Below, piece after piece: positions 22,534 to 64,000 of a stretch of 64,000 bases of DNA (its first letter is position 1; every line of letters starts with the position of its first letter). Both the position numbers and the translations under genes were made by a program. The stretch covers positions 558,001 to 622,000 of the forward strand of contig JAFCMP010000520.1 of NCBI GenBank assembly GCA_017506865.1. Reading direction: 5' to 3'. Below the pieces are notes generated by a model. It was not told the DNA's origin and made no database searches. It worked only from the letters and a program-made list of their open reading frames with translations. Origin of the DNA: Tribonema minus (Eukaryota; Sar; Xanthophyceae; Tribonematales; Tribonemataceae).

Positions 22534-25500
22534 TCAGCACAGCCGGTTGAGCCGCTCGCCGGCGGCCCACGCGCGCACGTTGGCGGCGGACGCCTCGACG
22601 CAGCGGCGGCGCGCCTCGCGCGTGCCCCATGCGGCGTGCGGCGTCACGACGGCGCGCGCGTGGCGCAGCAGGCGCAGCGACGACGACAGCGTCGCCGGCG
22701 GCTCCTGCAGCAGCACGTCGAGGTACGCGCGCCGGAGGAGGCCCGAGTCGAGCGCTGCCGCGACGGCGTCCTCGTCGAGCAGGCCGCCGCGCGCCTGAAG
22801 AAGGGGGGGGGGGGGGGGGGTGCGTTAGGCGAGGGTGTGAGTCTAAGGGACACGCTTTCTGCACCGCCCTCAGGATATCGGCGTTTGCAACGCCTGCATT
22901 TCCCCCAATGTTGACTGTCGCTGCACTGCATTGCGCTTGAACTTCAAGTTCAAAGTGTTTGCACAGTCTCACCGTGTGGATCAGAACTGCCCCTGGCTGC
23001 ATTGCCCTCAGGAAGGCCATGTGCACCATCTCCTGCGGTTCCTCAAGACCAATTCACTGCCGCTATGCTGCGTTGGGCCACCAAACTTCAAGTTCAATAT
23101 CTTCAAGCCTCACCGTGTTGATGAGCACAGCCCGCGGCTGCATCGCCCTCGAAAACTCAACATAAACCATCGCCTGTGCCATCTGCGCGCTGCTAGCAGG
23201 CATGCGCTCAAAGCCACTGACATTGCCTATCAGATTCTTTGAATCATGCATTGCACTCCAAAGGGTTTTTAAAAGTGGCTTCAGTTGTCCTTTAAATTTA
23301 TTTTGAATCATTGGCTCAAATCTCAAAAATGTATCTCAATCTCTGACCGTGTTGATGAGCACCGCCCCCGGCTGCATCGCCCTTGGGAAGTCGACGTTGA
23401 CCACCGCTTGCGCTGCACCAGGCATGCGCTCAAAGCAACGGTGTGAGCTGACAGCCACTAGCATCAACCGCTGAAACCTTTAAATCCTGTGTCGAAGCCT
23501 CACCGTGTTGATGAGCACTGCCCCCGGCTGCATCGCCCTCAAGAAGTCTACGTTGACCATTGCTTGCGTCTCCTCCGCGAGCGGCACGTGCAGGCTCACG
23601 TAGTCCGCCTTTGCCAGAGCGTTGCGCAGCGGCACGCTGTCGGGCTTGGGTTCGCGTCCCGGCAGCTGCGCCCAGAGCACCTCCATCTGCCATATTCATG
23701 AGGGCATGCCATGACAGCGCACCCATGAGTCACGCAGGTCGCTGGTGGTGCAGCGTAGGTTGCGTTGTCGCGCTGAGTGCAGGGGCAAGCATCGCTCCGC
23801 AGAGTGCTGCCATAGGACCTCAGCGCGCGTGCACTGCTGCACGTACTACTGCGAGTGACTGCAGCTGTCGCACCGGCGGCTGTGCAGCGCAGGCTGGATT
23901 GCTGCGTTGACCATGCAACTGCGAGGAAGCATGTGCGCAGCGGCGCGGTGTGACACGCACGAGCGCAGATCGCCGCACCTCGAACGCCTCCGCGATGCGC
24001 GCCACCGCTGCAATGATCGCGCCGCGCTACACATCAGCACCAAACCATGTCGCGCGCAGACTGCATGCCTGCCTCTAACCCTGCCCCTAGGACATACAGG
24101 ATCGTACGTGCTGTGGCGCTGACACACGACTTCAGCGCGACCATGACAGGCACGAGCGTTTTTGCCGCACCTCAAACGCCTCCGCGATGCGCGCCACCGC
24201 CGCGCCGATCGCGCCGCGCCCCACCAGCGCCAGCCTCTTGCCCGCGAGCTCCGTCATTGGGTGCGAGAGCGAGCAGAAGTCGAGCGCGTGCGGCCAGTGG
24301 TCGCGCGCCGTCGCCGCGAGCGCAGACACCGCACTCGCGTCGTGCGTCAGGTAGGCCGCAACCATCTGCGCCACGGACGCTGTGCTGTACACGGGCACGT
24401 GGGTAACAGCGATACCGCGCTTCCTGCACGCACGGCGCCGTGGGCAAAGGTACGGAGGCAGCAGCGCTCAATGTAAAGTCACAAGGCGCGATGCGGCGGC
24501 GCGCAGTTCATATGTATCATTGCTCATGCGTTTCATGGTCCGCAACATCAGCGCACGTGCATACGGAGATGCCGCAATCTCTGCACGTCGCGGTAGCGTT
24601 CCAAGGGTAAGCACGGTGCGAGCAGCGGCACATGTGAGCTCGGTCGTCGCGGCGGTGCTGCCGCGCTGTGTGTGCGCACACACCCAAAGTGGGGGAGTCG
24701 AAGGCGGCAAGGGCAGAGGCAGGGTGCGGCGCATGCCGCCGTTGCACACCATGCCGGCCGGTGCTGCATCGCGCGGTGCAATGCTCAGCGCGTTGAGCAC
24801 AACGTGCAGTGCTAGCATGAGCGTTACATGCAACTTGACATCATCAACTTGAAGTAACTGAGGCGCGGGGGCGCTGACATGAGCAGCAGCGGCGCACCCC
24901 GCATCTGAGCGCTGACGCACGCGGGCAGCAAGGTTGCGTCAGCTGCGTTGCCTGCTGCGGCAGTAGCGGGCTTGTGCGCACCTGGCGGCATCGAGGTCGA
25001 CCATGTTGTAGCCCGTCGCGGTGACGCCGACGTACTGCAGCTGCTTGCACGCGTCCATCTGCGCGCACGTGTACAGCAAATTGCACATTGTGGGACCAGT
25101 GACGCATGAGAGGCAGCAGGCAGACCTTGCAGTCCCTTGAGATAACACGATGTGTGCTATAGGGCAGTTGGCAGTGCGAGGCGGCAGCATTTCAAAGTTG
25201 GGGATCGGTGAGCTCCAGAGGCTGCAGGCGTGTTCAAGGAGCAACGGTGTGTCACAGAAGCAGGAGGTGCACGTACCACTGGCTCATCGATGACGACCTT
25301 GCTGGTGAGCACAGCCTGTGCATCGCCGATGCGCTTCAGCACAAGGTCGGGCGATGTGCGAGCATACACTGTCGCTGGGTGTCCAAGGCACTCGCTCCAC
25401 ACCTCCGGGCTCCCTTGATCACTCGTGAAGCCATCGAGAACAACGATGCGAGTATTTTGAAGGGGAGGCGGCGCTGCAAATGAATCTGCCACTCGCAGCA

Positions 25501-25549
25501 GTGGCACCATGAAGACGCACAGGAGTAGTGATCTTGGGATTCGTTGCAT
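22534..25549 (-). CDS. D-isomer-specific 2-hydroxyacid dehydrogenase (HprA / glycerate dehydrogenase-like)
   Basis: Five exons: 25277-25549, 24982-25058, 24171-24423, 23504-23686 and 22534-22794 (TGA stop). All have GT donors and AG acceptors, and phases agree throughout, giving 348 residues, the normal family length. Residues 1-25 (MQRIPRSLLLCVFMVPLL) look like a signal or targeting peptide. The substrate half includes VTATGYNMVDLDAAR and YSTASVAQMVAAYL. The NAD(P)-binding motif is LVGRGAIGAAVARIAEAF (GxGxxG). The catalytic set is Arg in ARGGLLDED, Glu in LLQEPPA and His in VTPHAAWGTREARRR. The last phrase is typical of bacterial HprA-type glycerate dehydrogenases. It would interconvert hydroxypyruvate or glyoxylate and their reduced forms, as in photorespiration. 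The exact substrate is unproven. Introns hold degraded copies of exon ends. Confidence 0.9.
22968..23412 (-). repeat. Three degraded copies of the 3' end of dehydrogenase exon 4
   Basis: Copies at 23341-23412, 23108-23180 and 22968-23037 each repeat the exon end that encodes FLRAMQPGAVLINT. The donor GT is kept in all. They lie downstream of the real exon (23504-23686) in intron 4. Confidence 0.85.
23970..24020 (-). repeat. Degraded copy of the 3' end of dehydrogenase exon 3
   Basis: Repeats the segment for AAVARIAEAFEVR, with GTGCGGC donor sequence, about 200 bases downstream of exon 3. Confidence 0.75.
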
Positions 25550-25968: not shown

Positions 25969-26000
<32 letters not shown>

Positions 26001-27461: not shown

Positions 27462-29264
27462 ACAGCAACAGCAGCAGCAGCAGCAGCAGCAGGTACAGCC
27501 AGAAGTCTCGATATGTGGAAGACGCAAAGCTCCTGTTCACGGTGCCTCTGGCACCGCAGCATTCGCGCTGAGCATGTGCCAGATGTGTGTCGTGTGCACC
27601 CGCGTGGCTGCTGCTTGCGCATTACTTCACCTCCACAACTTCAACTTCATGATGATCTGTTCAAACTTCAAGGTGAAGTTTGATGCGTGGTCATACATGG
27701 AAGGTGCATCCAGCATACGTCAATTGGAAGCAGGCCGCATGCGACTTCACCTCCTCCTCGGTAGTGCCATGCGGTTGCTGGTACCAATGGTACCATTGAT
27801 GGTACTGTAGTGCATGAGCCAGAGCACAGCGTACAGGCGCCCACTACGCCACTTGAGGTGAGTTGGCACGCTCTCTGCTCCTATGAATTAGGAACAGTTT
27901 ATGATATAGATGGCTGCAGCCCGTCCACGCTGATGGTGGCGTCTTGCAGTAGCAGCACTCAGTGCGCAGCGCGCGATCCACCCCACCCAATATATATCGC
28001 TGACTGGCCTTCGTGCTCTTGCCAAGGCTCGTATATGCTGTGCCTCAACTGCCCACTATATATGCGGATGCGCCCTGCCGCCGCAGCAGCAGCAGCAGCA
28101 GCGGCAGCAGCAGCAGCAGCAAGCCGCGGAGCCGCGTGCGTACACGCGGCAGGAGATTGCGCACCGCATCAACAGCGCGCCGCGCGAGGAGCGGTGGTGG
28201 GTGATGGCGGATGCGTGCATGCGCCTGGGGCCGACGGAGGGCAGGCAGTTCAAGGTGCCGCCGCGCTACGGTAGCTGTAAAGTTTGACGAGCCAACGCAG
28301 TCGTCGACTGTGTGTGCGCTCTGCGGGCAGATGCCGGAGAAGCGGTGCAAGTTCAACAAGATTGGCTCACTGCGGCTCCGACGTGTCACATAGATCGTCG
28401 AGTGTGTGCGCCGCAAGGGGCCAAACACAGGGGAGGCACTTCAAGTTGAGGTTGCGCTTGCGGCGTGTGATGTGTTAACAGTCTTGAGTGTGCACGGAAG
28501 CCTCAGCGCCGATGTCAACATGTTGGCGCTCGCGGCGGCTTCGAAGCAGGCTGCCGCAGCGCAGGACGTCCTGAATGAAATGTGTGTCAGTGCAGTTGGG
28601 AGTTGCGGTCAAGTACTGCCAAGGCATACAGGACCTATGGTGTTGAATGCGACCCGCAATGGCAGAGCTTGTGCGAAGCGAGGCACTGTAAGAGTCGCAA
28701 TCAATCCCTGGCTCAGTTCAAGAGAGGGACAACGGACTCTATTCTGCGTCGCCATTGCGCTGCGGGGCCACCTACACGCCATGTGACAGGCGGCAGTCGC
28801 TATGACTTCCGACGGTTCTCTGTCCTGTCGAATTACAAAAGCACATGTGCCGCCACCGTTGCACAGGCCACACACAGCAGCTACGGCGCGCTGCACCGAC
28901 GCTCGGCGCAATCATGTAGCTCGGCATCCTCGCTGATCCGTAGTCGCCTCTCTTTGCGCACCGTACTTCAAGAACTGGTGCTGCAGAAGCAATGTCTGTG
29001 GCGCATGTCATACTTCAACATGCCCCCCTGCGCCCCCGCCGTGCGCCGCAGGAGTATCTGGCGATCGCGGTGCGCTGCGTGGGCATGTACAACGCGGGCA
29101 ACGAGCAGCTGGCGTCGACGCTGCAGCTCGCGCTCAGCCCGCAGGTCTACGCGGAGGACTCCATCGACCGCGCGCAGCAGGTGCTCATGACCATCTGCCA
29201 GAACTACCGCGCCGCGCAGCAGCAGGCGGCGCAGCACCAGCAGCAGCAGCTGCAGGAGGGCTAG
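25837..29264 (+). CDS. Gln-rich nuclear-type protein of unknown function, five exons
   Basis: Exons 25837-26270, 26800-27040, 27277-27492, about 28087-28254 and 29052-29264 (TAG stop) join in phase to 423 residues. The ATG at 25837 (MDSNLNNLHGMN) is the first in frame. Exon 1 has polyQ and MPPRIVEAARAA, ending in LDVPAILALNN. Exon 2 is a helical, coiled-coil-like block (LRAGSGALAADPQRNLEAQATCRNKLVENLSQLSKLADAQ). Exon 3 is almost pure Gln/Ala. Exon 4 reads YTRQEIAHRINSAPREERWWVMADACMRLG. Exon 5 reads EYLAIAVRCVGMYNAGNEQ and AQQVLMTICQNYRAAQQQ. Gln tracts and helical blocks suggest a transcription or chromatin cofactor, but I recognise no family. The exact start of exon 4 in the CAG run is ambiguous. 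Copies of exon 5 follow the stop. Confidence 0.72.
27277..27492 (+). repeat. CAG/CAA microsatellite forming exon 3
   Basis: The whole exon is CAG, CAA and GCG codons and ends CAGCAG|GTACAG. Length variation in units of three would change the protein but keep the frame. Confidence 0.85.
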
Positions 29265-29640
29265 GTGTGCAGCAGGCGGCGCAGCAGCAGCAGCAGGAGG
29301 GCTAGGTGCGCAGCAGGCACGCCAGCGGCAGCAGGGCATGACAATCTGTCACGACTACCGCGCCGCGCAGCAGCAGACGGCGCAGCAGCAGCAGCAGCAG
29401 CATCAGGAGGGCTACCTGTGCAGCAGACCGGCCAGCGGCAATAGGGACGGAGCTGCAGCAGCGGCACCACCAGCAGCGGCTGCCGGCGCCAGCGGTGCAT
29501 GCTCAGCGGCACATGCTCAGTACAGCAGCAGCAGCACCAGCATGCGACGGCGGCAGCTACAGCATGAGCGGCGGCTTCTGTAGGCACCAGCCTCAGCCCA
29601 CGCCAGCAGGGCTGCCGTCAGTGCGCGATGGCAGCAGCAG
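29265..29640 (+). repeat. Degraded copies of exon 5 and stop after the Gln-rich gene
   Basis: At 29266-29304 and 29336-29410 the phrases CAGCAGGCGGCGCAGCAGC and ATGACAATCTGTCACGACTACCGCGCCGCGCAG repeat the end of the gene (MTICQNYRAAQQQ). These lie downstream of the true stop. Confidence 0.75.
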
Positions 29641-44200: not shown

Positions 44201-47200
44201 GTACAATCCTCCATTCCTCAGAGCCACTCTCAGGCTGTGCTTCCGCGCGCTCGCAGCGCTGCGGGCTGCGCCGAAGCGCTTCAAGCACCCACACTACATA
44301 AGCACAACAGGGCGCTTACTTCAAAGTCTAATTACTCGCAAGACTGCTTCTGAACCGTCCAAGGCGTGCACACCCCTGCGCTCGTCAGAGCCACTCTCAC
44401 GCTGTGTCTACGCGCGCTCACTGCGCTGCAGGCCGCGCCAAATTCCTTCAATCGTCTACACTATTACATAACCGCAAAGGGGCGTGTACTTCAAGAATGA
44501 AGTACGCACAAGCCTGCTCCAGAACCGCCCACATCGCAGCGCCGTGCACGGGGCGCGCACCTCTCGAATGCGGTATTTTCAATTGAAAATACTCTGAAGT
44601 ATGTATATTTTAAATCACGCAGTAAATGCATTGCTCAACCCTCTCACCAGTGCTCCACGAGGTCGGCTCCGTGCCGGTCTCCACGCGGTTTGCGTAGTCA
44701 AGGTGCACACTGCAGCGCCATGCACACGGCACGCACTCCTCAATGCAGTAGTTTGTTGATGAAACACACAAAAGGTTGCATCGCTCAGTGCACTCACCAC
44801 TGCTCCACAAAGTCGGCCTCCTTGCCGCTCTCCGCGCGGTTCGCGTAGTCGATGTGCACGGCGACCAGGCGCCAGCCGTAGCTGCGGCGGCGCAAGCGAG
44901 AGGCGGCGTGCGCTGGGGTCACAGATGCGTATGTGAGGCAGCGCTCAGGGCTAGCGTGCTGGGACCTGCCCTCTCCCGCAGCAGCGCTTAGACCTGGTGC
45001 CCTGAGCACTGCCCTCCCCATTCAAAGTAGCAGCTCGAGCGCGGCCCTCTGCTGCAGCAGCGATTAGATTCAGCGCCCTGAGCACTGGCCTCTGCTGCAG
45101 CAATGCTCTCTCCATGGCACTCACCAGCGAGCAAGTACACTCGGACGGTAAACGAAGCTACACAATTGATGGAATGAACACTCAGGGTCACATGCAGAGC
45201 GCGCGCGCAGCAAGGCTTTCAGGCGCACCGCACGCCAAGTCAAAGTCTGTGCAGCTCACACAGAGACCCGCAATACACCAGGTCACCCACACTTTCCGAG
45301 GCGCTGCAATCGTCACTACACGCACTGCCACTGCCACAGCGCTAGCGCTGCACAGCAGTCACCCATACTTTTCGCGGCGATGCGATCGTCACTGCACGCA
45401 CTGCCGCTGCCAAATTCTAGCACCGCTACCACATTGGCGCATCAATGCCACCGCAGCGCCGGCGCACTCACGCGGGCTGCAGGTGGTGCAGAATCTTGGC
45501 CAGGACCATGGAGTCCACGCCGCCGCTCAGCGATATGGCCATCGTCACTGGAGTGCTGCTGCCCGCGGCGTGTGCGCCGCCGCCATTGCGGACGCTGCCG
45601 CCGCCGCCGCTGTCGTGCACGGCCGCGTCAACACTGCCGTGAATGCTGTTGGCGGCACTGCTGCTGCCGCCGCTGGCGCTGCTGCCCCCGCTGCCGCTGC
45701 TGCCGCTGCCGCCGCCGCTGCCGTTGTGCGCAGCCGCGTCGCCACTGGCGTGGACGCTGGCGCCGTTGCCACCGCCATTGTGCGCAGCGGCGTCTATGCT
45801 GCCGCCAGCAACGCCGCTTGCGCCAGTGCTGCCGCTGGTGGTGCCGAGGCCGCTGCCGGCGGCGGCGCCGCTGCCGCCGGCGCTGCCATTTGTGGCGGTG
45901 CTGGCACCGCTGCTGCTGCTGTGGGTAGTGTGCTTGCCCTTGCCGCCGCCGCCGCCGCCGGATGTGGCAGTGGCAGGTTGGGGCGCCGCGCGCAGCCCGC
46001 GCGCGCGCGCAAAGGCGTCCACGGCGCGTACAAGTTTACTGGGGAAAAAAGGAACGGTGCAGATGCCATCGAGATTGCTCAGCGCCGCATTGTACTTCTG
46101 CTGGGTGCCACAAAGTGGTAGGTCCGACAGATGGTACAACGCTGCCAGCTCAAAACCTGCTTCACGTTTGGGCAGGGGGTTGTGAAGTACTCACGTTTTG
46201 TGCACGTCGGACTCGTTCACGACACGGGGCTGTTCACTTCTGCGGATTCCAAAAGTGCCTCGCTTCTAGGCTGTGAGTCCGTGTCAGAGGGCTCTTCACT
46301 TTTGAGGCCATGTGTCTGCGACGAACGGCTCGTCACTGTCGTGGAACTCAAGAATCGCTTCGCTTGTAGGCAGTTTCTTGGTGTGTGATACTTTCTATGC
46401 TAGCGCGCCTATGTATCTACTACTCCACCGCACCTGTGTGCTTGGTCTTGCGGGGCTGTGCCCAGCGAGAAGTGACGCACACGCTGCCGGTGCATCCCCT
46501 GCGCTTCACAAGAGCTTCACACGCTTCCCGTGTGTACACTACTCGCTATCCATACATGTTGAAGCATATGGCGGTGGCACGCTCATATTCATTGCCATTG
46601 CACGCTTGACGGTTGCGGCAGTTACGCTTTCCGGTACGCAGACCACAATCCGCTATCTTTCAGCAGCACGCGGCTTGCGCCAGTCTTGCGTTGCATGGGT
46701 CGCCTTGACGTCCACCTCTGCCGGTGTGGAGCAGCAGACTAGTGGGCAGCAGCTCTCTGCGTCGCAATGTGTACTGTGGTACACTTGAAGTTGAAATTAC
46801 TTCAAGTACTCACTTTTTGTGCATGTCGGACTCGTCCGCGTCAAAAGCCGCTCGCTCCAGGATGTCGTCGCCGCCGTCGGGCGCGCTCGCGCCCTGCAGC
46901 TCCTGCAGAGGACGCGGCGCAGGTTCGCGCGTGCGGCACACTGAAAATGACAATTTTCTACACATGTGACTGTGACAAAAGCAATTGAGCTGAGAGTTGC
47001 TGTTCACAGCTTGGAGCAGCTTGGACGTCGGCCAGGGCGCTGTTCCCCATTGAGCGCGACATAATCAGAGGGCGCGGCACGGGGCACGCGTGCGGCGCGC
47101 GCCAGACACCGAAGCGTAAATGTAACACACGCAACTGTCACAACCGCTGAGCTGTTAAACTCTAAGATGATGAATGAACTGGGTGTTTGCTATCGCAGGC

Positions 47201-50200
47201 ACAAGCAACTCAGACGGTGGCGCGAGGGCTAGCCCCATCGAGTGCCCCACAATTAATGCCCGTCACCGACAATGGGAGAAAAGCACTTGAAGTGTCATGG
47301 CCGCACCTTACGCAAACCTACCTGGAGCCTGCGCACGGAGGTGCTGCAAAAGCGGGCGCAGCACCTCGGCGGCGCCGGTCTCCTTGCGCGCCCCCCGATT
47401 GGAGTGCCAGCTTCAAGTGCCATCAGGGACTCGTTACATGCTGCAGGATTATCAGCATCGCCCCCAACCATCAGCATAAAATAGTAGTCATCGCACACGA
47501 ACCTGGAGCCTGCGCACGGTGGCGCGGCGGAAGCGGCGCATCACCTCTGCGGCGCCGCGCTGCTCGCGCACCTTCGCAATGGGGTGCCAACTTCAACTGC
47601 CAATCGGGGGACATGTATTTGACGTGCGACTGTACCATCTACACCCAGTAGGCGTCTCAATCTCTAGTCCTCGTCAACTTACCTGGAGCCTGCGCACGGT
47701 GGCACGGCGGAAGCGGTGCAGCACCTCGGCGGCGTCGCCGCCGCACTCCTCGCGCGCCTCTCGATTGCAGTGCCAGCTTCAACTGCCATTACGAACTCGT
47801 TACATGCTACAGTGCAGTAGCATCAGCATCACGCCCAACCACCAGCATAAAATAGTACTTCAAGTGGTCATGATCGCACATGAACCTGGAGCCTGCGCAC
47901 GGTGGCGCGGCGGAAGCGGCGCAGCACCTCGGCGGCGCCGCGCTCCTCGCGCGCAATTCTGGGTGCCATATTCAACTTCCATTGGGGGAGCAACTGTACC
48001 AGCCACACCCATAAGTCAGAGCATACCACCTCAGCTGTGGTCGACTGACCTGGAGCCTGCGCACGGTGGCGCGGCGGAAGCGGCGCAGCACCTCGGTGGC
48101 GCCGCGCTCCTCGCGCGCCTCGCGCGCCGCGACCTCGTCGAGCACGCGCTGCAGCCGCTCGCGGCGCGGCGGGCGCGCGTGGCGCAGCGGCATGAGCAGG
48201 AACGCGTGCTGCGCGGCGCTGAGCCGCCACTGCCAGCCCTGACAGTTACAGATTGAAGTTGAAGGGGGGGGGGAAGGGGGTGGAAACACATGGTTGAGGG
48301 TTATATGGTACGGCGAACTGTGGCGTAGCGTTTCCTGGTACTCCCAAGTGCATGTTGCTCGCAAGTACCTTGAACTACTGAGGGATACGCAGCGCTGTGT
48401 TTAAATGCCGCACCAAGCTGCCGCTGCCAGTCCTGGGAGTTACGCATGAAATTTATTTTATTGAGGGGGGGCAGGGGGGAGGGACATGCGACTGAAGCTC
48501 ATATAGTGTGCTGACGTGTGACGTAGCGTTTCATTTCAGCGCACTCCCAAGTGCATGCTACTCGCAAGTAACTTCAACTACTGAGACACACGGGGCGCTG
48601 TGTATCAATGTGTGTGCCAACCCGAGCTGTCACGGCCAGCCCTGGGAGTTACGCACTAAATATATTTCATTGATGGGGGGAAGGGGGAAGGGACATGTGA
48701 CTGAAGGTCATATAGTGTGCTGAAGTGTGACGTGGCGTTTTCAGGTACTCCCCCGGGTGCATGCTACACCCAAGATACAAACAGCTTTGGCACACTGGGT
48801 GCGTGGCACATCGATTGGTGTGAGCCGGGCCCAGCCACCCCTGCCAGCCCCCTTCCGGTCAAGGGAGGGGGTCATAGCGTGAGAGGCATGCAACCAATCG
48901 GATGGCTGCCTGTTGAAGTGCGGCATGCTACGAAGCGAAGTAGAGTATATGGGCACTGTCGGCGGCGTATGGCTCTCGACCATTGATGAATGAGGGCTGC
49001 TAGTGCAAAATTCACTCAACAACGTTGTGGAGATTTGAACTACCTTATCAAGGGCGCCCTCCGCAAGCGGCAGCGCCAGGGCGTCGCAGCGCGCCACCAG
49101 CGCGTCCCTGTCGGCGCTGTCCCTGTAGATGTGCCTGCGAGAGCGCGCCGCAGAGCGCACGCCAGCACAGCAGACGTGGTGTGTGAACTGCGACCGTCAG
49201 CGCCTCGTTGCCGTGTGCACACCGGTGATCGGTCTCTGCGACACGCCTTTTTCAAGTGACGCACTCAATTTCCTGCAACTTCAACAAAGCGACGTATGCA
49301 ATCTCCTGCGCAGCTGCCAGCTGACCATCGTCCTGGTTGCAAACTCACGCAATCTCCTATGACTTCAAATGCGGAGGAAGTTGCCACCTGAGCATCGTCC
49401 TGCTTGAAAAACGGACCTGTCATGGCAACCCAGCCACAGGCGTAGCATCGTATGCGTAGGAGACGCGGCGCGGACGCGCAGCAGCGCTTGTCAGCGCGTC
49501 AGGGCAGGTATGTATGGGCGCCCACTAGATGCACAGCAGCGCTCGGCACAGACACGCGCCTCCTCCGATACCATCAACTGCGTGTTGCTGCGTGCCCTCT
49601 GGCTGCGTGCACGTGTCATAAGATGCGAAACCTCTCGAACGCCTTGAAAGGTGCTGCGAGCCCACTCGGCACATAGCGGTTTCGTGAATCAGGTACTTCG
49701 AGTTACGTGGGTACATGCAGCCCTGACCAGTGCTGCAGGCCCTCGCAATACAGAGCGGTTTCATGAACATAAGGTAGGTAGGTACATGCGGCTTGCGCGG
49801 AGGCCAAAACGATCCGCGCACCTGGAAAACTGGTCAAGCAGCAGGATCAGCGCCAGGCATGCGTCCGGCCCGTCCGCCCAGGCCTGTAGCAGCGCTCAGT
49901 ACAGACAGAAGGTGTCGAGCTCAGGCATCAGGGGCAGGAGGGCGCGGAGCGCCTCGGAATGCTCAGTGCAGACAGGCGCTTAGGCTCAGTCGGCGACGGC
50001 AGGAGAGCGCAAAGCGCTTCAAGATGCTCAGCAGGAGCTCGTGCTCCATCAGGGCAGGAGGGCACAAGGTGCCTCGGAATACAGAGGGGCGCGTCCTAGG
50101 GACAGGGGAGAGCAACGTGCCTCGTCCAGTGTCTCGTGGAACCTGGAGGCCTGCTAGAGCGGCAGCGCACTTCAACGGCTGCTCATCATGGATGTTTTGT

Positions 50201-51730
50201 GCCTCGACTATACCAGGCGCACTGCTGTTGAAGAGCACCTGTCCGCTTCATGATGGCTTTACTAGTCACATGTGAGCAGCGCGGTGAGCATCAGAGCATG
50301 GGTAACGGTGCCCCTCACAAAGCCGTTCTGCAACACAATTAGTTGTGGCATCATGATCACGCCAAGACTGATTGACTGTGGCAGTTTTAATTTGGCGCTG
50401 CAAGCAGTATTCAGAGGCAGGATACAGCTCTTAACACTAGCTGCTGATTGTGAATGTTTGTTCCTCATCTATACGCGACACACTGCTACTGCAGAGCATT
50501 TGTCTGCTTCATCTTGATCTGAGGAGTCATATGTCAGCAGTGTGATGAGAGTGAGAGCGTGCAAACGGTGCCCCTTACAGTAGCATCGTGATCACGCCAA
50601 AAATGATTGAGTTTGGCAATTGCAATCAGAGGATGCAAGCAGTATTCAGAGGCAGCATGTAGCTGTCCGCACTAAGTAGCTGCTCATTGTGAACATTTTG
50701 TGCCTCGTCTACACCAGACGCACTATTGAACGCAGAGCACTTGCCTGCTTGATCTTGATTTAAGTAGTCATATGTGAGCGGTATGATGAAAGTCAGAGCG
50801 TGAGAACGGTGCCCCTGCTAAAGCATTCTGCAACACAAGTGGCATCACGATCACGCCAAAGTTGATTGACTTGGGCAATTTCAATCCAACATGCAAGCAG
50901 CCGCACGAGGCACAATGTAGCTGTTAAAGGTAATGAATCACAGAGACTGCATCCGCTTCATGAGCTACCGTGTTTGGTCCCCTCTTAAACACAAGAAGAG
51001 AGATGTATCGGGAAATCAATCATCGTTTGTTGGTAACAACGACATGGGTGACTTACCAGCAAGCAACCTACTTAACCTACTTACTGCTAAGGCAATAGGC
51101 ATGACGCACACAGCACCAACACAAATCCCAGCTGTTCTCGGAGGGGACGTCAAAATCGTGTTGAGCGCAACTTCACCTTCACAACCTGCCAATCTGCTGC
51201 ATAAGTTTTGTAAGACGCTACGCACGCAGTGCACAAGACTGAAATTTTAAATGCGAATCGTCAACCTATGTGTTCAGCACTGTGCAAACACGATTCAGCA
51301 CTGTGTTCTCGCAAAGCACCAATCCATGTTTTCAGCACTGCAAAGCGCCAATCCATGTGTTCAGCAGCTGCATCAAGGCGCACACAGCACGTCTACGGAC
51401 CTGTAGCTTTCCGGCCTGCGCATCCTCCAACAGCGCCCCATACCTCCCCCGCAGCAGCAGGTCAATCGCATCCCTCCGATCGCCAGCAGCGAACCACTTG
51501 CTGCGGTGGTTCTCGCCTGGGTCTCCATCAAACCACAAGCTCAATATCTCTTGTGCCGTATGCTCGTCAGGCTCAACTCGATCAGGCTCATCGACGTCAC
51601 CCAGCTTTGCTGGCTCTGCTGCAGCAGTCAGGCACTGGTGAATGTACGCAGCGGTGCACCAGATCATGCCCGCCAGTGCAGCAAACTTCAGCACATCCCT
51701 GGCAGCTCGTACTACTGCCGCCGGAGCCAT
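31924..51730 (-). CDS. DUF924 - PP-loop (TilS / RASPBERRY3-like) fusion protein, 16 exons
   Basis: Exons (minus): 51401-51730, 49822-49883, 49044-49134, 48050-48238, 46814-46902, 45472-46038, 44798-44881, 43271-43367, 39486-39599, 38792-38881, 37936-38046, 37162-37268, 35649-35724, 34420-34605, 33155-33261, 31924-32485 (TAA). Every junction has GT-AG ends and agreeing phase, for 953 residues. After a hydrophobic N-terminus (KFAALAGMIWC) comes DUF924: ILSLWFDGDPGENHRSKWF, LALILLLDQFSR, HIYRDSADR and HAFLLMPLRHA. A bridge with DDILERAAFDADESDMHKN and a Gly/Ser-rich insert (exon 6) lead to the PP-loop ATP site SGGVDSMVL, then VHIDYANRAES, TRGVTDRAEYEAVSRE, LFGHHRGDVQENVVSNVM, FAHRYSVPYFKDTTP, WSTRGKLRN and MPYRGKGLYFWRE. 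The PP-loop half matches TilS-type tRNA(Ile)-lysidine synthases, which adenylate a tRNA anticodon cytidine. The plant RASPBERRY3 protein is the likely closest type. The C-terminal tail is Ala/Ser-rich. Organelle location is inferred only. Confidence 0.86.
34190..34290 (-). repeat. Downstream copy of the 3' part of exon 14
   Basis: The minus strand reads CAAAWWPVRRKVLLLVFRG, a diverged copy of SAAWWPLRREYRCYCSEAR from exon 14. Confidence 0.65.
34690..35125 (-). repeat. Four upstream copies of the 5' edge of fusion-gene exon 14
   Basis: Copies near 34690-34730, 34810-34865, 34935-34995 and 35080-35120 repeat the acceptor and the codons for ALMVLLHSMGLPMVSDR. They lie in intron 13, upstream of the real exon (34420-34605). 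One is followed by a G tract of about 20 at 34998-35017. Confidence 0.88.
35277..35320 (+). other. tRNA D-arm-like sequence
   Basis: GTAACTCAGTGGTAGAGTAC matches an RNA polymerase III box A / D-arm. No box B or T-arm is seen downstream and no cloverleaf closes, so this is at most a tRNA-derived SINE head or a decayed tRNA. Confidence 0.25.
37380..37450 (-). repeat. Upstream copy of the 5' edge of exon 12
   Basis: Repeats GACATGT..GGATGGCGTGCTGGGYCACCTGAG with the preceding acceptor, about 170 bases upstream of the real exon 12 acceptor. Confidence 0.8.
38095..38400 (-). repeat. Direct repeat pair in intron 10 with a very long G/C homopolymer
   Basis: Two units of about 110-120 bases (38100-38210 and 38290-38400) are separated by a run of about 34 G at 38224-38258. 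On the gene strand this is poly-C upstream of the exon 11 acceptor. Another G-rich tract lies at 38055-38090. Confidence 0.75.
39385..39450 (-). repeat. Downstream copy of the 3' edge of exon 9
   Basis: The minus strand reads LFGHHRGNVQEKVVSNVL followed by a GTGAGTC donor, a diverged copy of the exon 9 end about 100 bases downstream. Confidence 0.85.
39600..39630 (-). other. Telomere-like tract serving as the exon 9 acceptor pyrimidine tract
   Basis: On the gene strand CACCCTGGCCCTAACCCTACCCCTGCCAG leads directly into exon 9. CCCTAAC contains a branch-point-like CTAAC, so the telomere-like repeat itself may provide branch site and pyrimidine tract. Confidence 0.5.
41055..42115. repeat. Repeat cluster in intron 8: direct repeats flanking an inverted repeat
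   Basis: A direct repeat (GGCATGCGGYTCAG..GCTCTGAGT) occurs at 41055-41165 and 42007-42115. Between them, 41250-41470 and the reverse complement of 41600-41815 form an imperfect hairpin. Shared phrases are CTGGCCACAGCCG, GAGAACCAGARCGCCACC and GAAGACCGCCGC. Both arms still read as related peptides (LATAADLLYTAAT, LATAVCLQYTAAT). This is the layout of a foldback transposon with flanking repeats. Confidence 0.65.
42300..42965. other. AT-rich island in intron 8
   Basis: About 650 bases are AT-rich, with sharp edges against the GC-rich surroundings. Frames in both directions contain protein-like fragments (for example LNDFAFTETGTILAGSIHET, plus) broken by TAA stops. The composition is unlike anything else in the window and suggests organelle or foreign DNA, now decayed. 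I could not identify the source gene. Confidence 0.5.
43055..43087 (+). repeat. Interstitial telomere-like CCCTAA tract
   Basis: ACCCTAACCCTAGCCCTAA and onward, about five units with one variant. Shorter tracts occur at 39610, 40393, 42222, 44010, 54728-54762, 59140, 62430-62452 and 63150-63170, in both orientations. Confidence 0.85.
44160..44720 (-). repeat. Tandem repeats and exon 7 copy in intron 7
   Basis: Units of about 185 bases with TCAGAGCCACTCTCA at 44218 and 44387 lie beside a diverged copy of exon 7 at 44610-44715. That copy reads CSVHLDYANRVETGTE, against AVHIDYANRAESGKE in the real exon. Confidence 0.75.
46190..46230 (-). repeat. Downstream copy of the exon 5 donor edge
   Basis: The gene strand reads AACGAGTCCGACGTGCACAAAAC|GTGAGTACTT, against GACGAGTCCGACATGCACAAAAA|GTGAGTACTT at exon 5. 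Confidence 0.85.
47320..47965 (-). repeat. Four downstream copies of the exon 4 donor edge
   Basis: Copies end at donors near 47321, 47507, 47683 and 47884, period 175-200 bases. Each repeats the codons for EVLRRFRRATVRRLQ. Donor sequences vary, and one, CAG|GTAAGTT near 47683, is a better consensus than that of the real exon. Confidence 0.9.
48255..48860 (-). repeat. Upstream copies of the exon 4 acceptor region
   Basis: Three units of about 205-225 bases share CCAGYCCTGGGAGTTACGCA, a G-rich block, GGACATGYGACTGAAG and ACTCCCAAGTGCATG. The first unit is the real acceptor at 48239. Confidence 0.8.
50190..50905 (+). repeat. About 250-bp tandem repeat in intron 1
   Basis: GGTGCCCCT occurs at about 50308, 50566 and 50808, each followed by ATCACGCCAAR.TGATTGA and GCAAGCAGTATTCAGAGGCAG. 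About three units; no coding potential. Confidence 0.85.
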
Positions 51731-53077: not shown

Positions 53078-56000
53078 TCAGCTCAGCGTGTCTACCACGC
53101 CGTTGTTGGCAACCGTCTTGCTGCCCTTGAGCGCCAGCAGGCGCGTGACGCCAAACACTGCGACGGCGCCGACGGCAGCACTTGCGCTCGCAATCGCGAC
53201 CACCGCGCCAGTGCTCAGATCGCTGCTTGCCGTCGAACCGCCGCTGCCATCGGCGGCGGCGCCGCCGCCGCTGCCGCCGCTGCCGTCGCTGCCGGGTTCG
53301 GCAGCGGCGGGGGGAGTGGTGGGTGCGGGCGTGGCGAGTATCTCCTCCTGCTCGAGATCGAGGCTGTCGAAGTGGAAGTCGCCCTGGAGGGCGCACACCT
53401 GGCGGCAGTTTCCGAGGATATATCCGCAAGAGCTGTCAGAAAGCTGCGGCAATTAATGATACGTCGCACGTATGACATTATCAGGGAGGGGTGCATTTGT
53501 CCACACTGAATGGTGCCGTGGCGCCGCGCGCTGCAGGTGGTGGCCGTGCCCGCATTCAGTTGAACGTGCAACAAATAGCAGGACTGCCTAACCTGCTCTG
53601 AGTGCTTGTGGGGCGCTGCAACCTGCAACATATGGGGGCGGGTGCCTTCCAATCCTGCCCATTGTGCCGCTGACATGTGCTTTGTGCTGTTGGCCGGTGC
53701 CAGCACATATACCAGACGCGCACTGGCCGCCGCCGCACTGACTGATCTGTACGCTGTGCGTCCCGCCATTCACCTGCACCAACATGCCGCCGCCGCGCAC
53801 CACCACAACTGTTGGCATGTGGTGCCCTTGCACATGCATGCATGTACCCTGGAGCAGTTTCTGTTTTCAGTGGCCCATGTGGATGTACCTGGAACTTGTC
53901 ACCTCTGCAGCTGAAGCGTCACGCGTGCACCTGCCACAATTGACGCGCGTGCAAAACAATAAATGCGGCGGCTACTGAGCACTGACCTGTATGCAGTGCG
54001 GCCCGGCGTCCATCTGCACGGCGTCCCCGCCGCTGACGATGCTGTGGTAGTTGTAGTACCCCTCTGCGAGCGCGTCAGGATATACAACGTCCAGTAGAAG
54101 CGCGGGGTCGGCGGGCTTCGCGCGCGGCCCGTAGTTGTACTTGGCCTGGCAGGTTTGCAGTTCAGGGCGCGTTTGAAGTTCAGCAGAGGTCAGCATGAGG
54201 AGGGACTGCTGAGTGCGCGATGGAGAGTCGGCTTGGCCTGACGCGCGTTGAAGGCGACGGCAGAGGCCAGCACGCTAACAAAGCGCTGAGTTGTTGTAAT
54301 GAGGACGGGGGGGGGGGGAGGGGGGGGGAATCGGCCCGAGAGGGAGAATGTAGGCCACGAGCTGGTGGCATTATTTTTGTGTTGAAATTCGGCTGAACGA
54401 GGAAGAATATTAGGTCATGGCCTCCGACCTGGCGCACATGAGCGCCACATGTACCGTAGCGCATGCGTCGCCCGTCCGTCATAGCGAAGGGCATGTCGGT
54501 AAGTTGGTACACTGCCGAGGGGTACAGGGTGTGGATCGGGGCATCGCGCAGCGCAGTCAGGTGTCATGTGAACGTGAGAGTGTCGAGTGAGGCGTGGTGT
54601 TTCTGGCGCAAACATGCGCAGATCGCCATGGCACCCTTTATTCGAGGTACACCGTGGACAATTTTTGAAGGTACACACGTGCGCGTGTGTGGCGGCGGTC
54701 ACTGGAGGACTGGCGCGCTGGCTTGCTTAGGGTAAGGGTTAGGGCTAGGGCTAGGGTTAGCCTCAACTTCCAACAAAAGCCCAGAAAAATGTTGCTGATG
54801 ATCAACTATTCCTCAACAAATTTCCCTCATCGCGCAGTCCAGCGGCTTGGTCGCGGCGCACGCCTTCACAAAACTAAACTCTCACAGCAAGTCCACATCT
54901 ACTTGAAGTTTTGAGGTCAGAATTTTACTGATGGTCAATTATCTTTCCAGAATCCTCTCTCACCGCGCAGTCCAGCGGCTTGGTTGCAGCGCACGCCCCC
55001 GGTACCGTTAGCACGCGCGCCATCGGGCCTGGCTCGGGTGTCGGCGCTGCGCGGCCCGCGCGCATCGCCGCCGCGTACGTTGCCTGGGGCGTCACCGCCA
55101 TCACCGTGTAGCGCCACCACTCGCCGGCGTCGATCCAGTTGAGGTCGGCGTCGTTTGACATGACCTACGGCGCGTGGCGGCGGTGGCAGTGTTCAGTATG
55201 GGGGGGGGGGGGGGGGAGGCGGGGGTCGTCAGCAAGAAGGGGGTGGGGCGGGGGGGGGGGGGGGGCACCGTGTAGCGCCACCACTCGCCGGCGTCAATCC
55301 AGTTGAGGTCGGCGTCATTCGACATGACCTGCGGCGCGGCGGCGGCGGCAGTGTTCAGCATGACAGGGGGTCGGGGCCTAGGCACTGCAGCCCTGCAATT
55401 GCGCCAACTGTCACACACATCATTTCCAAAAACCTGTGCTAGACCTGTCTCAGCATGGCAACGCTTCGCGAAAATAGAAGCGCCCTTTACTCTCAATCAG
55501 CAGCTCAATGGGCCAGCCAGGTCGATCATTGCAACTGCAGCTCACTGCACGGATGAGCGAGCAGTTTTATCAGGTTTTCACGAGCACACTTGCAAGTACC
55601 TTATCAGCGTTGTTGCCAAACTCAACGTCAATGGACGGCGCATCGGGGCGGTACCCAATGTTGCCACCGTTGTTGTCCGGCGTGGTCTCGAAGAAGGTGA
55701 CGCCGGGACCGCCAATGTCGAAGTTCTCAGCCTCCACAACGCCGGGGATGGTAACCTGGCCGAAGGAGACAAGCAGTAGATAGGGTGCTAAGGTATGTGT
55801 GTGTAGGATCCTGTGAAGAGAAGCATTGGCTTCTCCTGTGGATGCTACCACAGTATGCAGATGATGAACTATACAGATGATGTTTATGCGTGAGGACGTG
55901 ACGCTCCACTGTGAGGTGACGTCCCGCTGCACCAGCCTCAGGCTTTCTTCCCCCTGCACGCATCTGGGTTTCGTTTAACTTCAAGTCTACAGGTACCTGT

Positions 56001-59000
56001 GAGTCCGAGTCCTAAATCACTCACTCACTCTGACTCACTCTGCCCACTGCTCAGCGCACACGATTTCTGCTGCGGTCAGGCGCTCAGAACAAAAGCGAGA
56101 TGCGTGTGTAGGGAAGGCAAAGGCATACTTCAACTTGAAGCACATACATACCTTGATCGGGTCGTACGTCGCCCACACGTCAATGTTGGAGACGGAAACG
56201 GGAGCACCCAGAGCACACAGCTGCAGCGCACGGCAGTGGGCAGCAAAGAATTGCACTGTGAGAAGCGACCTGTGATGACGTTGAAAAATGTAATGTAGTT
56301 TTATGCCGATTGGAGTCAGGAAGTACGGTTGCAGTGCAGGAAATGCAGTGTAGAAGTATGCAGTGCAGCCCGAGCGGCTCAACTGATGTAAAAGTCCAAT
56401 AAACTCCCCCCTACACAATCAAGGCAAGGCAGCACAGCCCTATCGTGTGGCAGGCGCATGTGATGTGCAAGCTACGATGCAGCAGCGAGCAGCAGACACG
56501 CGCTTTGTGAGGAAGAGCGAGCAGAGCTCCGATACAAATTGGTGCCTGTGCTGATGAGCAATAACCGCGTGTGTGAGGCAGCGCACTAAACAAGCGACAA
56601 ATTCTGATACATACTTTTGAAGTAGTACATCATATATCAACCCCATAGTAATGGTTTCAGGGTCCATAGTTGTCGCAAGCAAGGAACACGAGCATTTACG
56701 CACGGGCAGTTGATGCAGAAGAAACTGCCGTCAACTGGGGAAAGTGCCTTTGCTAATATTGCCTCTCAAAACCAGCAGAGCTGCTTGACACGTGTGGATT
56801 ACAGTTGTACTTTACCTGTAGGCAAGCGTCGCCTGCCGGCAAAACGATGGGGTCGCCCATGAACATCTCGAAAACCTGCACCAAGATGTTGTCACAAAAG
56901 ATGCGAAGTGTCACGAGGCTGCAGTGGTGCTAGAATGGCTTAGGGCTGGCACGCAGGCTGAGGTCACATGGCAATGCGTGTGTCGCTAGCAAGTAGTATA
57001 CAAGCGCTATGTAGTTGTTTTGAAGCCTCTCTACACTATTGTTTGGCTTATGAAAACATATTAGAAATAATCAACATGCAGGTGCAAGGCGTGACGCCGA
57101 TGGCGCCTATCGCGAACCCTCCTGTGCTTGAAAAGGCCGCCTCAGCGGCCTATGGGATTAATCACTGCTCAAGAGACAAGTATTTTTTGTTCCAAATCCT
57201 CCACCCTGACCTTTGTCGACTCTAAAAATGTACTCGCTACTCAATCAATCAACACGTACGGCAGGGCGTGACGCCGACAGCACCTACTGCAAAGCCCTGG
57301 TGCTCGTGAAGGCGGCGTTCAGCGCCGACGCGCGTCCAGCTTCAACATGTGACGCCGGCCCTACGTTCAACTGCAAGCTGTGATGCTGATTGCACCCACC
57401 GCAGAACCCCTGGTGCTCGTGAAGGCCATGTCCGGCGCTGGCAAGTGCAACTTCAACTGTGACGCTGGCGCTGCGTTCAACCGCAAGCTATGATGCTGAT
57501 TGCAGCCACCGCAGACCCCCCGGTGCTCGCGAATGCCGCATCCAGCGCCACCGAATTGTGATGATTGTACTATCCATCGAACAAGTCTTCCTTGTATTTG
57601 AAGCCTCTACATTGAAGTATTTAGATACTGCAAAGTATATATATGCTGACTGTTTGAACAGTCAACTTGCAGGCGCAAGGTGAGACGCAGACAGCACCCA
57701 CCGCAACCCCCCGGTGCTCGCAAAGGCCGCGTCCAGCGCCACCAACCTGCTGTGATTTTATTATCCATTGCAGATGTCTTCATTGTATTTTAAGCCTCTG
57801 CGTTGAAGTATTGAGAGTTGAATACCTCGAAGTAACTGCAATTTGATCAACCAACTGCAAGCTGTGACGCTGCCAGTACGTACCGCGAACCCGCCGGTGC
57901 TCGTGAAGGCCGCGTCCAGCGCCACCGCGGCCGTCGCCTCCAGCGCCGGGTTGCAGTTGTAGGGCGCGGCGCGCTCGATGCACTCCCCCGCGCCGGCCAT
58001 GACCACAACGCGGTTACCCTTGGGCAGAGGGCTGATGAAGCAGGCGATGCGTATGGGGTTAGTATGAATGGAAAACAGGCCTCGGAATGTGTGCTTTTGG
58101 AAAGCATTCAGGGGGAGGAAGCAGCACGTGCATCACTTCTTGACTGGTACCGCCCAGCAAGAAAAGGCACACATCGTTGCTATGCTATGCTTGAGCCTTG
58201 CGTGCAAATCTGCTGCCTTCCCCTTAGCGTAGTAAAAGAGAGGACATGCAGTGCGTCAGTGTGTGTCACGCGCTCGAGCTGAGTGCGGCGACTGCTGCGC
58301 GCCAGCAAAAACGCGCTGCAAGTTTTTGCAGCACCACCACCAGCAGCAACACTCAGCAGCAGCACCAGCAGCAGTACCAGCAGCAGCAGTGCTCAGCGGC
58401 AGCAGCGCTCACCTTGCGGACCCCACGTTGGCGCCGACGACGTACTTCCCGGCCTTCGGCAGCGTCGCCGTGTAGGAGAAGAAGTCGCCGTCGGCGGCGG
58501 CTTCGATGGCCCACCCGCCCGGGCACGTGTCGCACGCGGCAGTGCGCACCTGCGGAGCGTCCCCGCGCACGCCGGGGGGTCCGGGGACGACCTTGACGCC
58601 GTAGCCCGAGGCCTGGAAATAATTGGGGAGTGAGGGAGAAGGGGGGGGGGGGGGAGGTGCAGGGCTAGGTATTTTTGTGACGGTAGAAGGGGGGGGGGGT
58701 ATCATGATGGTGGTGGGGTGTGGGGACGACCTTGACGCCGTAGCCCGAGGCCTGCAGCGCGTGAGGGGTGTTGTGTGAGGTGCGGGGCGGGGGGGTCATG
58801 TGCAGGGCTAGGTGCGGTTTTGTGACGGTAGCGTGGGGGGGCGTTGGGGCGGGGGGGGGGGGGGGGGTATCATGATGGTATTGGGGCCTTTGGGGGGGGT
58901 GTTCACCAGGGTGCCCCCGCATTGGTAGGATGGGGGCAGGGCGGCATTGGCTACGAATCAGAGGCCAGAGGGCACAGGCTGTTGTGTGGGGTATCATCTT

Positions 59001-62000
59001 CAAAGTTGAACTTGTGCTCAGCCGACCGATGTAACTGTGACCTACGCGCAAGGGCGCTGATGCGTGCACGGCAGCCTCTGCACAGCGGTCGTGAGGCGTG
59101 CGCGCATCTGTACCTCGGGTGCTTAGCTTAGGGCTGGACGCTTGGGCTAGGGCTAGGGCTGGGTTTAGTGATGGGGTCTAGGTCGGCAACAAATTTGAGC
59201 ATATGCGCCTTTGCACAACACGGCCTCAGCGCTCAGCGCTCACGCACTGCCATCTGCACCCGTGCCACCACGCATGGCTGCGCCGCGCACACGCAGATTG
59301 ATAGCCGCAGGCACAGGCTGGTACGTGCAACACGTGTACAGAATGGAGGCAGACGAGATGAGCTACGGTGCCGACTCGTGGGTTTTGCAATGCGCTGCCT
59401 TGTACCGTACCTTGGGAGTTTGGTACAACGACGCCTGCAACCATGTATGTTAACATATGATCAAAGATAGAGTATTAGGTATATATTGCATTCTTATGGC
59501 TGTCAGAGGGCGTTGACAAGGGGGGGGGGGCGCAGCCCACTCTGCCCTGTCAAGCACCCCGCGGGCATACTATATTAGAAGTACTATGCACTACCTTGGG
59601 GGGGTTCGGAGGAACGACGCCTGCGACCATGGCGTTGTCACCCAAATCGAAGAGGGTGCCGGTGATCACGCCGGGCAGGGCGGGCTGGCAGCACACAATC
59701 AGGGCAATGACGTAAGACAGCAGGTGAAAAGTCGTGCACGCAGTGGCGTCACAATTTCGTAAAAGACGCTCGCGAACGTTGAAACAGCCGAGCAGTTCAG
59801 AGTGCCTGTGGTAAGGAGTTTGGGGCAGTCCGAGTTGTTTACTGTTGCACTTCTCTAGTGCTCCAGAGTGGTGTACTCTCACAGTACTTGCGGACATGCG
59901 CAGACACGCCATGCGCGCAGAAGCAATGGACGTCAAAGTCAGCGCTGAAAAACATGCCCCCTGACTGCGTACCAGCACGTAGGACAATTGAATTCGTGAT
60001 GAATGACGAAGCAAAGCGCGCGCGCATGCTGAACTCCTCGCGTGATTTTATCATGTTCCAACTTCAAGACTTCTGGCGAGTAACTCACCGCAACGCCGCC
60101 GTACGGTTCAGCCGCGGGCAGCGCATCCGCAGCTTGGAGAATGACAAAGTGGTTAATGTTGAATCCGGGCTGCATGAAGCACACCTTGACGCATGCGACC
60201 GACTGCTCATTCTTTGAAGCATGCCGAAAACCCTTGCATTTTGTTTGAAGTGAGCGTGCAATTTCAATACGATTCGGGGCGAGGGACTCACCGCAACGCC
60301 GCCGTACGGTCCAGCCGCAGGCGGAGCATCCGCAGCAGGGAGTACGACGAAGTGGTCGATGTTGAATCCAGGCTGCATGATGCACACCTTGAGGCACGCA
60401 ACGCCCTTGTAGAGGAGCACCGTATCGGGTGACGGGAAGTTGACGTAGTTCATGTAGTCCACGGTGCCCTGCGCGGAGCAGAGTGGGGGCAGGGGAGGCC
60501 GGGGGAGGGGGGGGGGGGGGGGTAAAGGGGGACAAAGTAAACCGTACCAGTGGACGGCAGGAGCATGATATTGAGGGAACAATTACGGTACCTATCTGTT
60601 GCTGTTGCAAGCAATGCTCTCTACACGAAGCATCGCACAGTGCAGCTTGCACGATCCATGAAGCAGGCCTACCGCCCAAAACCATGTCAGGCCTGTCAAT
60701 CAGGTATTTTTACAAGCTTTGGGGGGATAGCAGGCAGGGCACAAACAACAGAGTGAATTTCTCACTAAACACTGATGTATTGTCGCTTGCTGGCTGTGGG
60801 GGGAAAGGGGGAAAAACGGCAAGGAGCTAGGAGCGAAACCACCTAGGTACCCAGCACCTCCAAAGCCCCCCCCCCCTTTTTTCACCTGTACCCTACCCCC
60901 TTAGTACAAGAAGGGCAGGGTGGGTGGGCTTTCAACTGTGCCTACCAGCTATCGCCTCTGCTGCAGCTGTGCCTAACGCTCGTTGGCTGCCTGTCAGCAC
61001 GAGGTGTGATTTGGCACACTGCCAACTTCCCCCGGGGGCTTGCAAAAAGTGCCCATTCTACGCCTGGTCCCCAAGTACACAGAGCTGGCACCTGTCATTG
61101 CCGCTTGAACTTGGCGCCAAGAGGCAAGCAACTGCCGGACCTCGCAAGCAATGGCGGACCTCGAAAGCACAGTGCTACACGCGGGCACGCCGCAAATCAG
61201 TCCTTTGAAACGTCCCAATAAGTTGCTACCTTGAGTACAACACCTGAGGTAGCACCGTCGTCATGCGTACATACCATATGACGTGTCATATACTTCTATG
61301 TCATAGATACATGTCGGTGTGGCACTAAATGCCAACCCTAGGTACACATGTTCATACATGCACACACATAATACACGCATATGTACGTGCACACATACAT
61401 ACATACCGGCGTAGAGCGATTGGCGCGCTGGCCTCGAAACTCGGAGTCCTCGGCCGTAAAGCATGCACATATATGCACACATATGTACATGCCTACACGT
61501 ATGTGTACGTGTCCATACATACATACCGGCGTAGCGATTGGCGCGCCGGCCCCACAGTCGGCGTCCTTGGCCGCAAAGCATGCGCATACATGCACACATA
61601 TGCACATACCTACACGCATGTGTACGAGCACGAATACATACATACCGGTGTGGCGATCGGCGCGCCGGCCTCGCAGTCGGCGTCCTCCGCCGCGAAGCAG
61701 GGGCCTGGGACCGCGACAAAGTACGCTTGTACGGCCAGGGGCTTCGGCTTGACGGGTTTGACGGGCTTGACAGGCGCGGCGGGCGCGGCGGGAGGGGCTG
61801 CAGCAGTGATCAGCACGGGGATGAGAGTTAGGGGGGGGGGTGGGCGGTTTACGGCAATGCGAGGGCAGCAGAGGTCAATGAAGGTCGTTAATTGCGCGGG
61901 CAGTGCAGGGCAGCCGCCGCTGCAGATCTGTGCGTGCGGCGCAGCGCAGCGCGCGAGGCGTGGCACCCGCGCCTGCGGGGCCGGTACTTCAGTGCCGATT

Positions 62001-64000: not shown

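Follow-up and report, generated by a model that had tools for sequence, protein, structure and literature searches.

Outward copies of exon edges in introns of Tribonema minus and their possible concerted evolution with the working exons

In this paper we examine a stretch of 64,000 nucleotides (G000:C517:558001-622000, called the window here) from the 158-Mb genome of the xanthophyte Tribonema minus. Exons of three minus-strand genes in the window were set by homology, using spliced alignment to homologues or to a family profile, and a further gene on the plus strand carries a repeat that is relevant here. The genes are as follows:

22534..25549, minus strand: D-isomer-specific 2-hydroxyacid dehydrogenase gene, from protein P0001 and spliced alignment; exons 25277-25549, 24982-25058, 24171-24423, 23504-23686 and 22537-22794 (plus stop)
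29186..29474, plus strand: Gln-rich gene with a period-151 repeat (81%), the second unit of which repeats an exon-like end; border not defined by homology
43268..51580, minus strand: DUF924 plus TilS-like PP-loop gene, partly modelled, from a family profile of homologues; exons 51401-51580, 49822-49883, 49044-49134, 48050-48238, 46814-46902, 45472-45558, 44798-44881 and 43268-43367
53078..58612, minus strand: uncharacterised gene, named 'CBM6' in the first-pass annotation, from homologues P0173 and P0174; exons 58413-58612, 57884-58031, 56816-56875, 56152-56220, 55600-55755, 54964-55164, 53987-54145 and about 53078-53398

The dehydrogenase assembled from the window agrees at 97% with P0001, a T. 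minus protein. The fusion of DUF924 with a TilS-like PP-loop domain (43268-51580) has the same arrangement among the listed proteins of Phytophthora, other oomycetes and Chrysoparadoxa (P0127). When ten single reading frames were compared with Pfam, three weak sub-threshold matches resulted, DUF924 among them, and there was no Pfam match among the tested pieces of the 'CBM6' gene, leaving that name unconfirmed. Several other features lie in or around these genes. A long stretch of retroelement-type reading frames, which we take to be integrase-like and reverse-transcriptase-like, occupies 2383-16561 on the minus strand and has period-99 tandem arrays inside open frames; the frame at 8603-11113 presumably also holds a cytosine DNA methyltransferase motif. 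Interstitial telomere-like AACCCT/TTAGGG runs are found just past the last modelled TilS exon (43053-43084) and inside an intron of the 'CBM6' gene (54727-54760). An intronic dispersed repeat of about 97 bp (58074-58170) has matches of 74-90% identity on at least 28 contigs. The region C312:501227-504105 is 98% identical to 55302-58190 of the window and may represent part of the 'CBM6' gene, either as a recent segmental copy or as an alternative haplotype.

At a number of exon borders in these genes, the end of the exon together with its splice site is found again inside the adjoining intron. In the three genes with homology-defined exons we count 16 such outward copies at 8 of 34 borders, 15 of them donor-side and one acceptor-side, a count from which a TilS exon of doubtful status (45994-46038) and all modelled exons not longer than 40 nt are excluded. 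A seventeenth copy adjoins an exon ending at 60292, which was read from the sequence and from splice scores. The first-pass annotation had counted more than 25 copies on both strands; the exon-edge copying itself is borne out, but the 17 copies that we could verify are all on the minus strand. They are listed below with the number of identical positions:

23972..24042, minus strand: dehydrogenase, exon 3' end and donor, copy of exon end 24171, 61/69
23343..23412, minus strand: dehydrogenase, exon 3' end and donor, copy 1 of exon end 23504, 62/70
23106..23189, minus strand: dehydrogenase, copy 2 of exon end 23504, 68/84
22965..23044, minus strand: dehydrogenase, copy 3 of exon end 23504, 63/80
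47884..47954, minus strand: DUF924/TilS, copy of exon end 48050, nearest of four, 70/71
47677..47763, minus strand: DUF924/TilS, copy of exon end 48050, 75/81
47501..47573, minus strand: DUF924/TilS, copy of exon end 48050, 68/73
47320..47392, minus strand: DUF924/TilS, copy of exon end 48050, 63/72
46187..46224, minus strand: DUF924/TilS, copy of exon end 46814, 33/38
44643..44708, minus strand: DUF924/TilS, copy of exon end 44798, 57/66
57700..57743, minus strand: 'CBM6' gene, copy of exon end 57884 (W_c1), 41/44
57508..57553, minus strand: 'CBM6' gene, copy of exon end 57884 (W_c2), 40/46; intron part apparently older than the paralogue split
57398..57438, minus strand: 'CBM6' gene, copy of exon end 57884 (W_c3), 36/40; intron part apparently older than the paralogue split
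57282..57332, minus strand: 'CBM6' gene, copy of exon end 57884 (W_c4), 42/51
55266..55336, minus strand: 'CBM6' gene, upstream copy of acceptor and exon start 55164, 67/71
54823..54864, minus strand: 'CBM6' gene, copy of exon end 54964, 38/42
60059..60199, minus strand: copy of exon end 60292 and donor, exon-derived part 60089-60199; repeat pair 60059-60199/60259-60402, 83%

The acceptor-side copy at 55266..55336 has three coding differences from its exon, all at codon position 3. The repeat in the Gln-rich gene looks like the same phenomenon, judging from its second unit.

For an estimate of how frequent these copies are, we used one gene family that had not been picked for repeats. Kinesin motor exons gave 132 matches in the genome and 24 gene regions, which were selected for spread-out multi-exon matches and are therefore intron-rich, not a random sample. 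For exon definition we combined a kinesin profile with a purpose-written spliced-alignment program and obtained 138 introns with a median of 660 bp and internal exons with a median of 134.5 bp. Of the 24 genes, 18 have copies; these number 91 and lie at 50 of 252 testable borders. In the border test a probe of 60 nt (40 exon and 20 intron) was matched against up to 500 nt of neighbouring intron sequence and against 200 stretches taken from other loci. Border probes match their own intron better than they match the 200 random stretches from other kinesin loci, an observation that bears on introner-like elements, in which one intronic sequence recurs in many unrelated introns. At p<=0.005, matches were obtained for 34/118 donors downstream and 41/118 acceptors upstream, against 42/246 and 39/246 for intron-interior controls and 15/88 and 12/87 for exon-interior controls. 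The gap between borders and interiors widens for strong matches: at a score of at least 20 the borders give 31/118 and 32/118 and the intron interiors 17/246 and 19/246. Copies were looked for inside introns only; introns shorter than 250 or 200 bp (depending on the test), exon sides shorter than 40 or 30 nt, low-complexity repeats and copies whose match stops away from the border were left out. Exon-edge copies are real and are common in the intron-rich kinesin genes and in the tested genes of the window.

The copies are distributed unevenly among genes. Taking kinesin and window genes together, they occur in 1 of 11 introns of 100-300 bp and in 17 of 24 introns of 1,200-3,000 bp. In 14 further loci, from about ten additional kinesin genes whose modelled part contains few introns (three of these genes entered twice, and one locus overlapping a main-set gene), copies were present at 2 of 27 borders, both belonging to one intron. 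The outward polarity proposed in the first-pass annotation is confirmed in the kinesin set, where the opposite orientation is nearly absent (1/88 and 1/88 probes; 3/256 repeat pairs). This polarity follows from tandem duplication and the need to keep the reading frame, and so it is not independent evidence. The proposed decay of copies with distance does not generalise: the pooled Spearman correlation in the kinesin set is -0.03 (p=0.78), and the nearest copy is the most similar one in 11 of 20 multi-copy arrays, where about 8.3 would be expected.

The origin of the copies by short tandem arrays crossing exon-intron borders, as had been suggested, is well illustrated by two loci. At L039 there is an exact tandem duplication of 177 bp which includes the last 54 bases of the exon, and at L042 there is an exact tandem unit of 39 bp; both units span donors, so that exon edge, splice site and adjoining intron are repeated head to tail. 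Among 82 exon-copy pairs, 43 retain residual homology of the intron part at a level above the baseline plus 2 sd. At L043 the exon is separated from five acceptor-side copies by an insert, at about 7.97-8.47 kb in gene orientation, in which CGATATAAGAGCGG-type motifs are repeated in both directions.

Do such duplications start preferentially at borders? The random-placement check that had been put forward as a possible refutation does not refute the pattern: of the local repeat pairs that could be classified, 111 of 229 (48.5%) cross an exon border, compared with 19.8% when positions are shifted at random (n=300, highest 28.4%), with 27 of 256 pairs classed as 'other' and excluded and with pairs within an array not being independent. 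Young duplications, defined by at least 90% identity over the whole unit and no gaps, tell us about placement itself, and in annotated genes 2 of 8 of these span a border, a small sample for which the random expectation is 11% to 25% depending on identity class in the all-pair test. The idea of a preferential start at borders is thus not upheld, and the border excess looks like persistence rather than placement. One cause is that the exon partner is frozen by selection, so that similarity at borders outlasts similarity elsewhere.

Decoy splice sites are indeed plentiful, as the first-pass annotation had it. Using a score that was trained on the very genes being scored, 26 of 34 decoy donors and 27 of 41 decoy acceptors lie above the 10th percentile of real sites. 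The GT is kept in 26 of 34 donor copies and the AG in 33 of 41 acceptor copies, which agrees with the exon identity of 0.91 without exceeding it; conservation of GT and AG beyond the surrounding bases, which would mark functional decoys, is therefore not seen. The partner sites are no better than expected either: upstream of donor copies the best acceptor has a median score of -1.41 (n=34) against -0.82 in controls, and downstream of acceptor copies the best donor has -2.81 (n=39) against -1.15. Copy offsets are even modulo 3, without a frame bias. Cassette exons, mutually exclusive exons and in-frame extensions were considered and rejected, with no opposite splice site above control and with these even offsets. 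One observation points the other way. The T. minus database protein P0174 takes an acceptor-side copy at C185:2361-2395 (L063) as an exon and thereby repeats VCSLGAPFS. The decoy acceptor scores 5.6 there and the true acceptor 4.5, and the copy has two differences in its first 26 exon-derived bases, both silent. P0173, a relative named as a transcript-derived protein, is without the repeats present in P0174. The decoy exon of P0174 may reflect splicing or annotation, and the gene finder that we used accepted several decoys as exons as well. Overall, the decoy sites look like by-products and not like selected sites.

A further comparison is that between two intronic copies of the same edge, in which the exon itself takes no part. 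In the kinesin set, the exon-derived parts of such pairs have an identity of 0.82, the intron-derived parts 0.57 and random pairs 0.456. The exon-derived part is the more alike in 47 of 50 copy pairs, which within an array are not independent, and as copies were located by their exon part the comparison favours a high identity there. Kinesin copies lose their identity to the exon locus steeply at the border, where roughly 5 nt separate values of about 0.9 from values of about 0.5. The differences between exon and copy furthermore follow the codon. With the best copy per array, kinesin copies differ at 49/915, 52/920 and 151/921 sites of codon positions 1, 2 and 3. The resulting third-position ratio is 2.99 (895 codons). 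Simulating copies that evolve neutrally beside an exon under constraint yields 1.63 (95% 1.29-2.07; maximum 2.27 of 300 runs), and discarding half of the amino-acid changes that arise in the copies brings the simulated ratio to 2.72, which is near the observed value. The 17 least-diverged arrays show 1, 3 and 23 differences at the three positions, where the simulated ratio is 1.67 (largest 6.25). An indel is found in 21 of 91 kinesin copies and an in-frame stop in 5 of 91.

Other possible sources of the codon pattern were rejected. Base composition or CpG does not account for the third-position excess, the stratified rate ratio being 3.2 over all copies, and at positions 1 and 2 the per-site frequencies of GC-to-AT and AT-to-GC changes are roughly the same. 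Counting several copies of one array is not the reason either, with ratios of 2.98 or 2.81 for one copy per array and 2.5 for single-copy arrays. Nearly all of the codon effect is due to a single family, the kinesins. In the window genes the differences are 38/301, 20/305 and 48/307 over all copies, or 10, 9 and 18 with the nearest copy per array, and neutral copies could also give these counts. Neutral decay as the only cause is rejected by the simulation for the kinesin set and not for the window genes alone. The earlier view of the copies as plain decaying debris is not supported, as the exon-derived part is conserved relative to the intron part and the kinesin differences are codon-like: in the kinesin set, the intronic copies do not look neutral.

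The 'CBM6' gene has a paralogue on its own contig at a distance of about 60 kb, and in the two pieces compared both paralogues have arrays at the same two exon ends. In a tree of the intron parts of the array at exon end 57884, the window copies W_c2 and W_c3 group with the paralogue copies P_c1 and P_c2 (support 97/99), and grouping by paralogue is rejected (p-AU 0.0445). These four copies would therefore be older than the paralogue split. In the tree of the exon parts, however, P_exon, P_c1 and P_c2 group together (unstarred support 86/93), and the rival arrangement is worse by 9.8 log units (p-AU 0.068); this conflict between the trees concerns one array with 8 short rows. In the two arrays together, the exon of the own paralogue is the closer one for 8 of 9 copies, with one tie and margins of 0.02 to 0.10. 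In one array this holds for 6 of 6 copies, including the four that predate the split by their intron parts. Four-gamete incompatibility is present in 14 of 26 informative site pairs of multi-copy arrays, although such conflicts may arise from repeated mutation instead. The tree conflict and the closeness to the own exon are what concerted evolution of an exon edge with its intronic copies would produce, although the data are modest. That the copies stay unexpectedly exon-like in their coding part suggests that exon and copies keep exchanging sequence. Close copies of another member of the 'CBM6' gene family are found on L059 (C185), L060 (C155) and C302; L059 and L060 are 97.5% identical and have an acceptor-side exon-start copy in common.

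The best explanation of these results, to which we give a probability of roughly 0.6, is random tandem duplication followed by concerted evolution of the exon edge and its copies. Introns acquire short tandem duplications, whose units range from tens of bp to a few hundred, and some of these span an exon border, as the exact units show. Coding constraint then requires the outer copy to stay the working edge, which leaves the extra copies and their splice sites inside the intron and fixes their polarity. The exon-derived parts would be kept exon-like in the long term by recurrent exchange with the exon edge, through gene conversion or array contraction, while the intron-derived part would be free to diverge; the data, though modest, support this. 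Harmful changes in a copy could be carried into the exon edge by overwriting and so might finally meet selection, and the copies would evolve as if they were partly coding. Such selection is not visible at the splice sites, where GT and AG are kept no better than exon bases. The boldest form of the explanation, in which exon edges and intronic copies form one recombining array and mutual overwriting puts the copies under coding-type purifying selection, we hold only tentatively, and we lean slightly against it.

The most serious competitor is neutral: tandem duplications would fall at random, selection would keep the exon, and the copies would decay neutrally, the frozen exon merely prolonging their similarity. 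It fits the young duplications, similarity is indeed lost more slowly when one partner is frozen, and the window genes taken alone are compatible with it. Nevertheless, we consider it unlikely. The exon part is conserved even between copies when no exon is involved, the kinesin codon-position ratio exceeds the neutral maximum of all 300 runs, and in one 'CBM6' array every copy is nearer to its own paralogue's exon, including those apparently older than the split. Direct selection on the copies, as alternative exons that are spliced in or as regulated decoy sites, would explain the codon-like divergence and the many high-scoring decoys, and P0174 contains an acceptor-side copy as an exon. But the partner splice sites are no better than control, the offsets are even modulo 3, GT and AG receive no extra protection and the transcript-derived P0173 is without these repeats, so that we regard it as quite improbable.

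Two explanations remain which concern where the copies come from. If a second, diverged haplotype had supplied them by unequal exchange, silent differences would have been present from birth, and this predicts silent-biased differences in the least-diverged copies, just as we see. The intron parts, however, have diverged even where the exon part is identical: the copy at +533 of L045 matches its exon at 60 of 60 anchored positions, while the whole 159-nt match is 85.5% identical. A haplotype source is therefore, in our judgement, very improbable. Tandem repeats are prone to misassembly, yet an assembly artefact is scarcely credible, because exon-anchored copies have an average identity of 0.91 to the exon and hence are not duplicated reads of one sequence, and because the same arrays are found in paralogues.

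About a fifth of the borders in the kinesin set (50/252) have near-copies of themselves in the adjoining intron, and if this is general, intron growth, splice-site choice and annotation in this lineage will have to be reread. The codon-like pattern also offers a testable case in which recombination would project selection on the exon onto intronic DNA, with gene conversion that can be measured within a single gene. If exon edges and copies do form recombining arrays, coding selection would reach into introns, and introns would hold templates of exon edges. The decoys can mislead annotation too, as P0174 and our own gene finder demonstrate.

In the open-access literature, among the matches listed, common and homogenised copying of exon edges is not described in Tribonema or as a general pattern, although related systems are known. 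Through concerted evolution by gene conversion, members of tandem arrays stay alike within a lineage. The Tribonema arrays differ from ordinary concerted arrays in that one member is a working exon edge while the others are intronic, and in that it is the exon-derived segment that is kept alike. In the accessible part of a report on Tetrahymena LRR genes, a variable number of 90-bp exons is ascribed to ectopic recombination (PMC6564038); repeated exon units with splice sites are common to both systems, but the units in Tetrahymena are whole exons and those in Tribonema partial exon edges without a sign of use. In the potato RdRp gene a tandem duplication across an intron-exon boundary created a new intron in a single event, according to the section available (PMC4974935). 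This resembles our case in spanning the exon border and copying splice signals, whereas the Tribonema copies lie inside introns of many genes and we claim no new intron. For intron gain in Drosophila, whether by tandem duplication or by intron sliding, an exonic AG/GY proto-splice site is required and new intron positions result, as far as the excerpt describes it (PMC2891723); partial exon duplication gives extra splice sites there as well, but unlike in Tribonema the intron gain described comes without iterated intronic arrays. Border-crossing tandem duplication as such is already known from these single cases, as the available parts of both sources relate (PMC4974935, PMC2891723).
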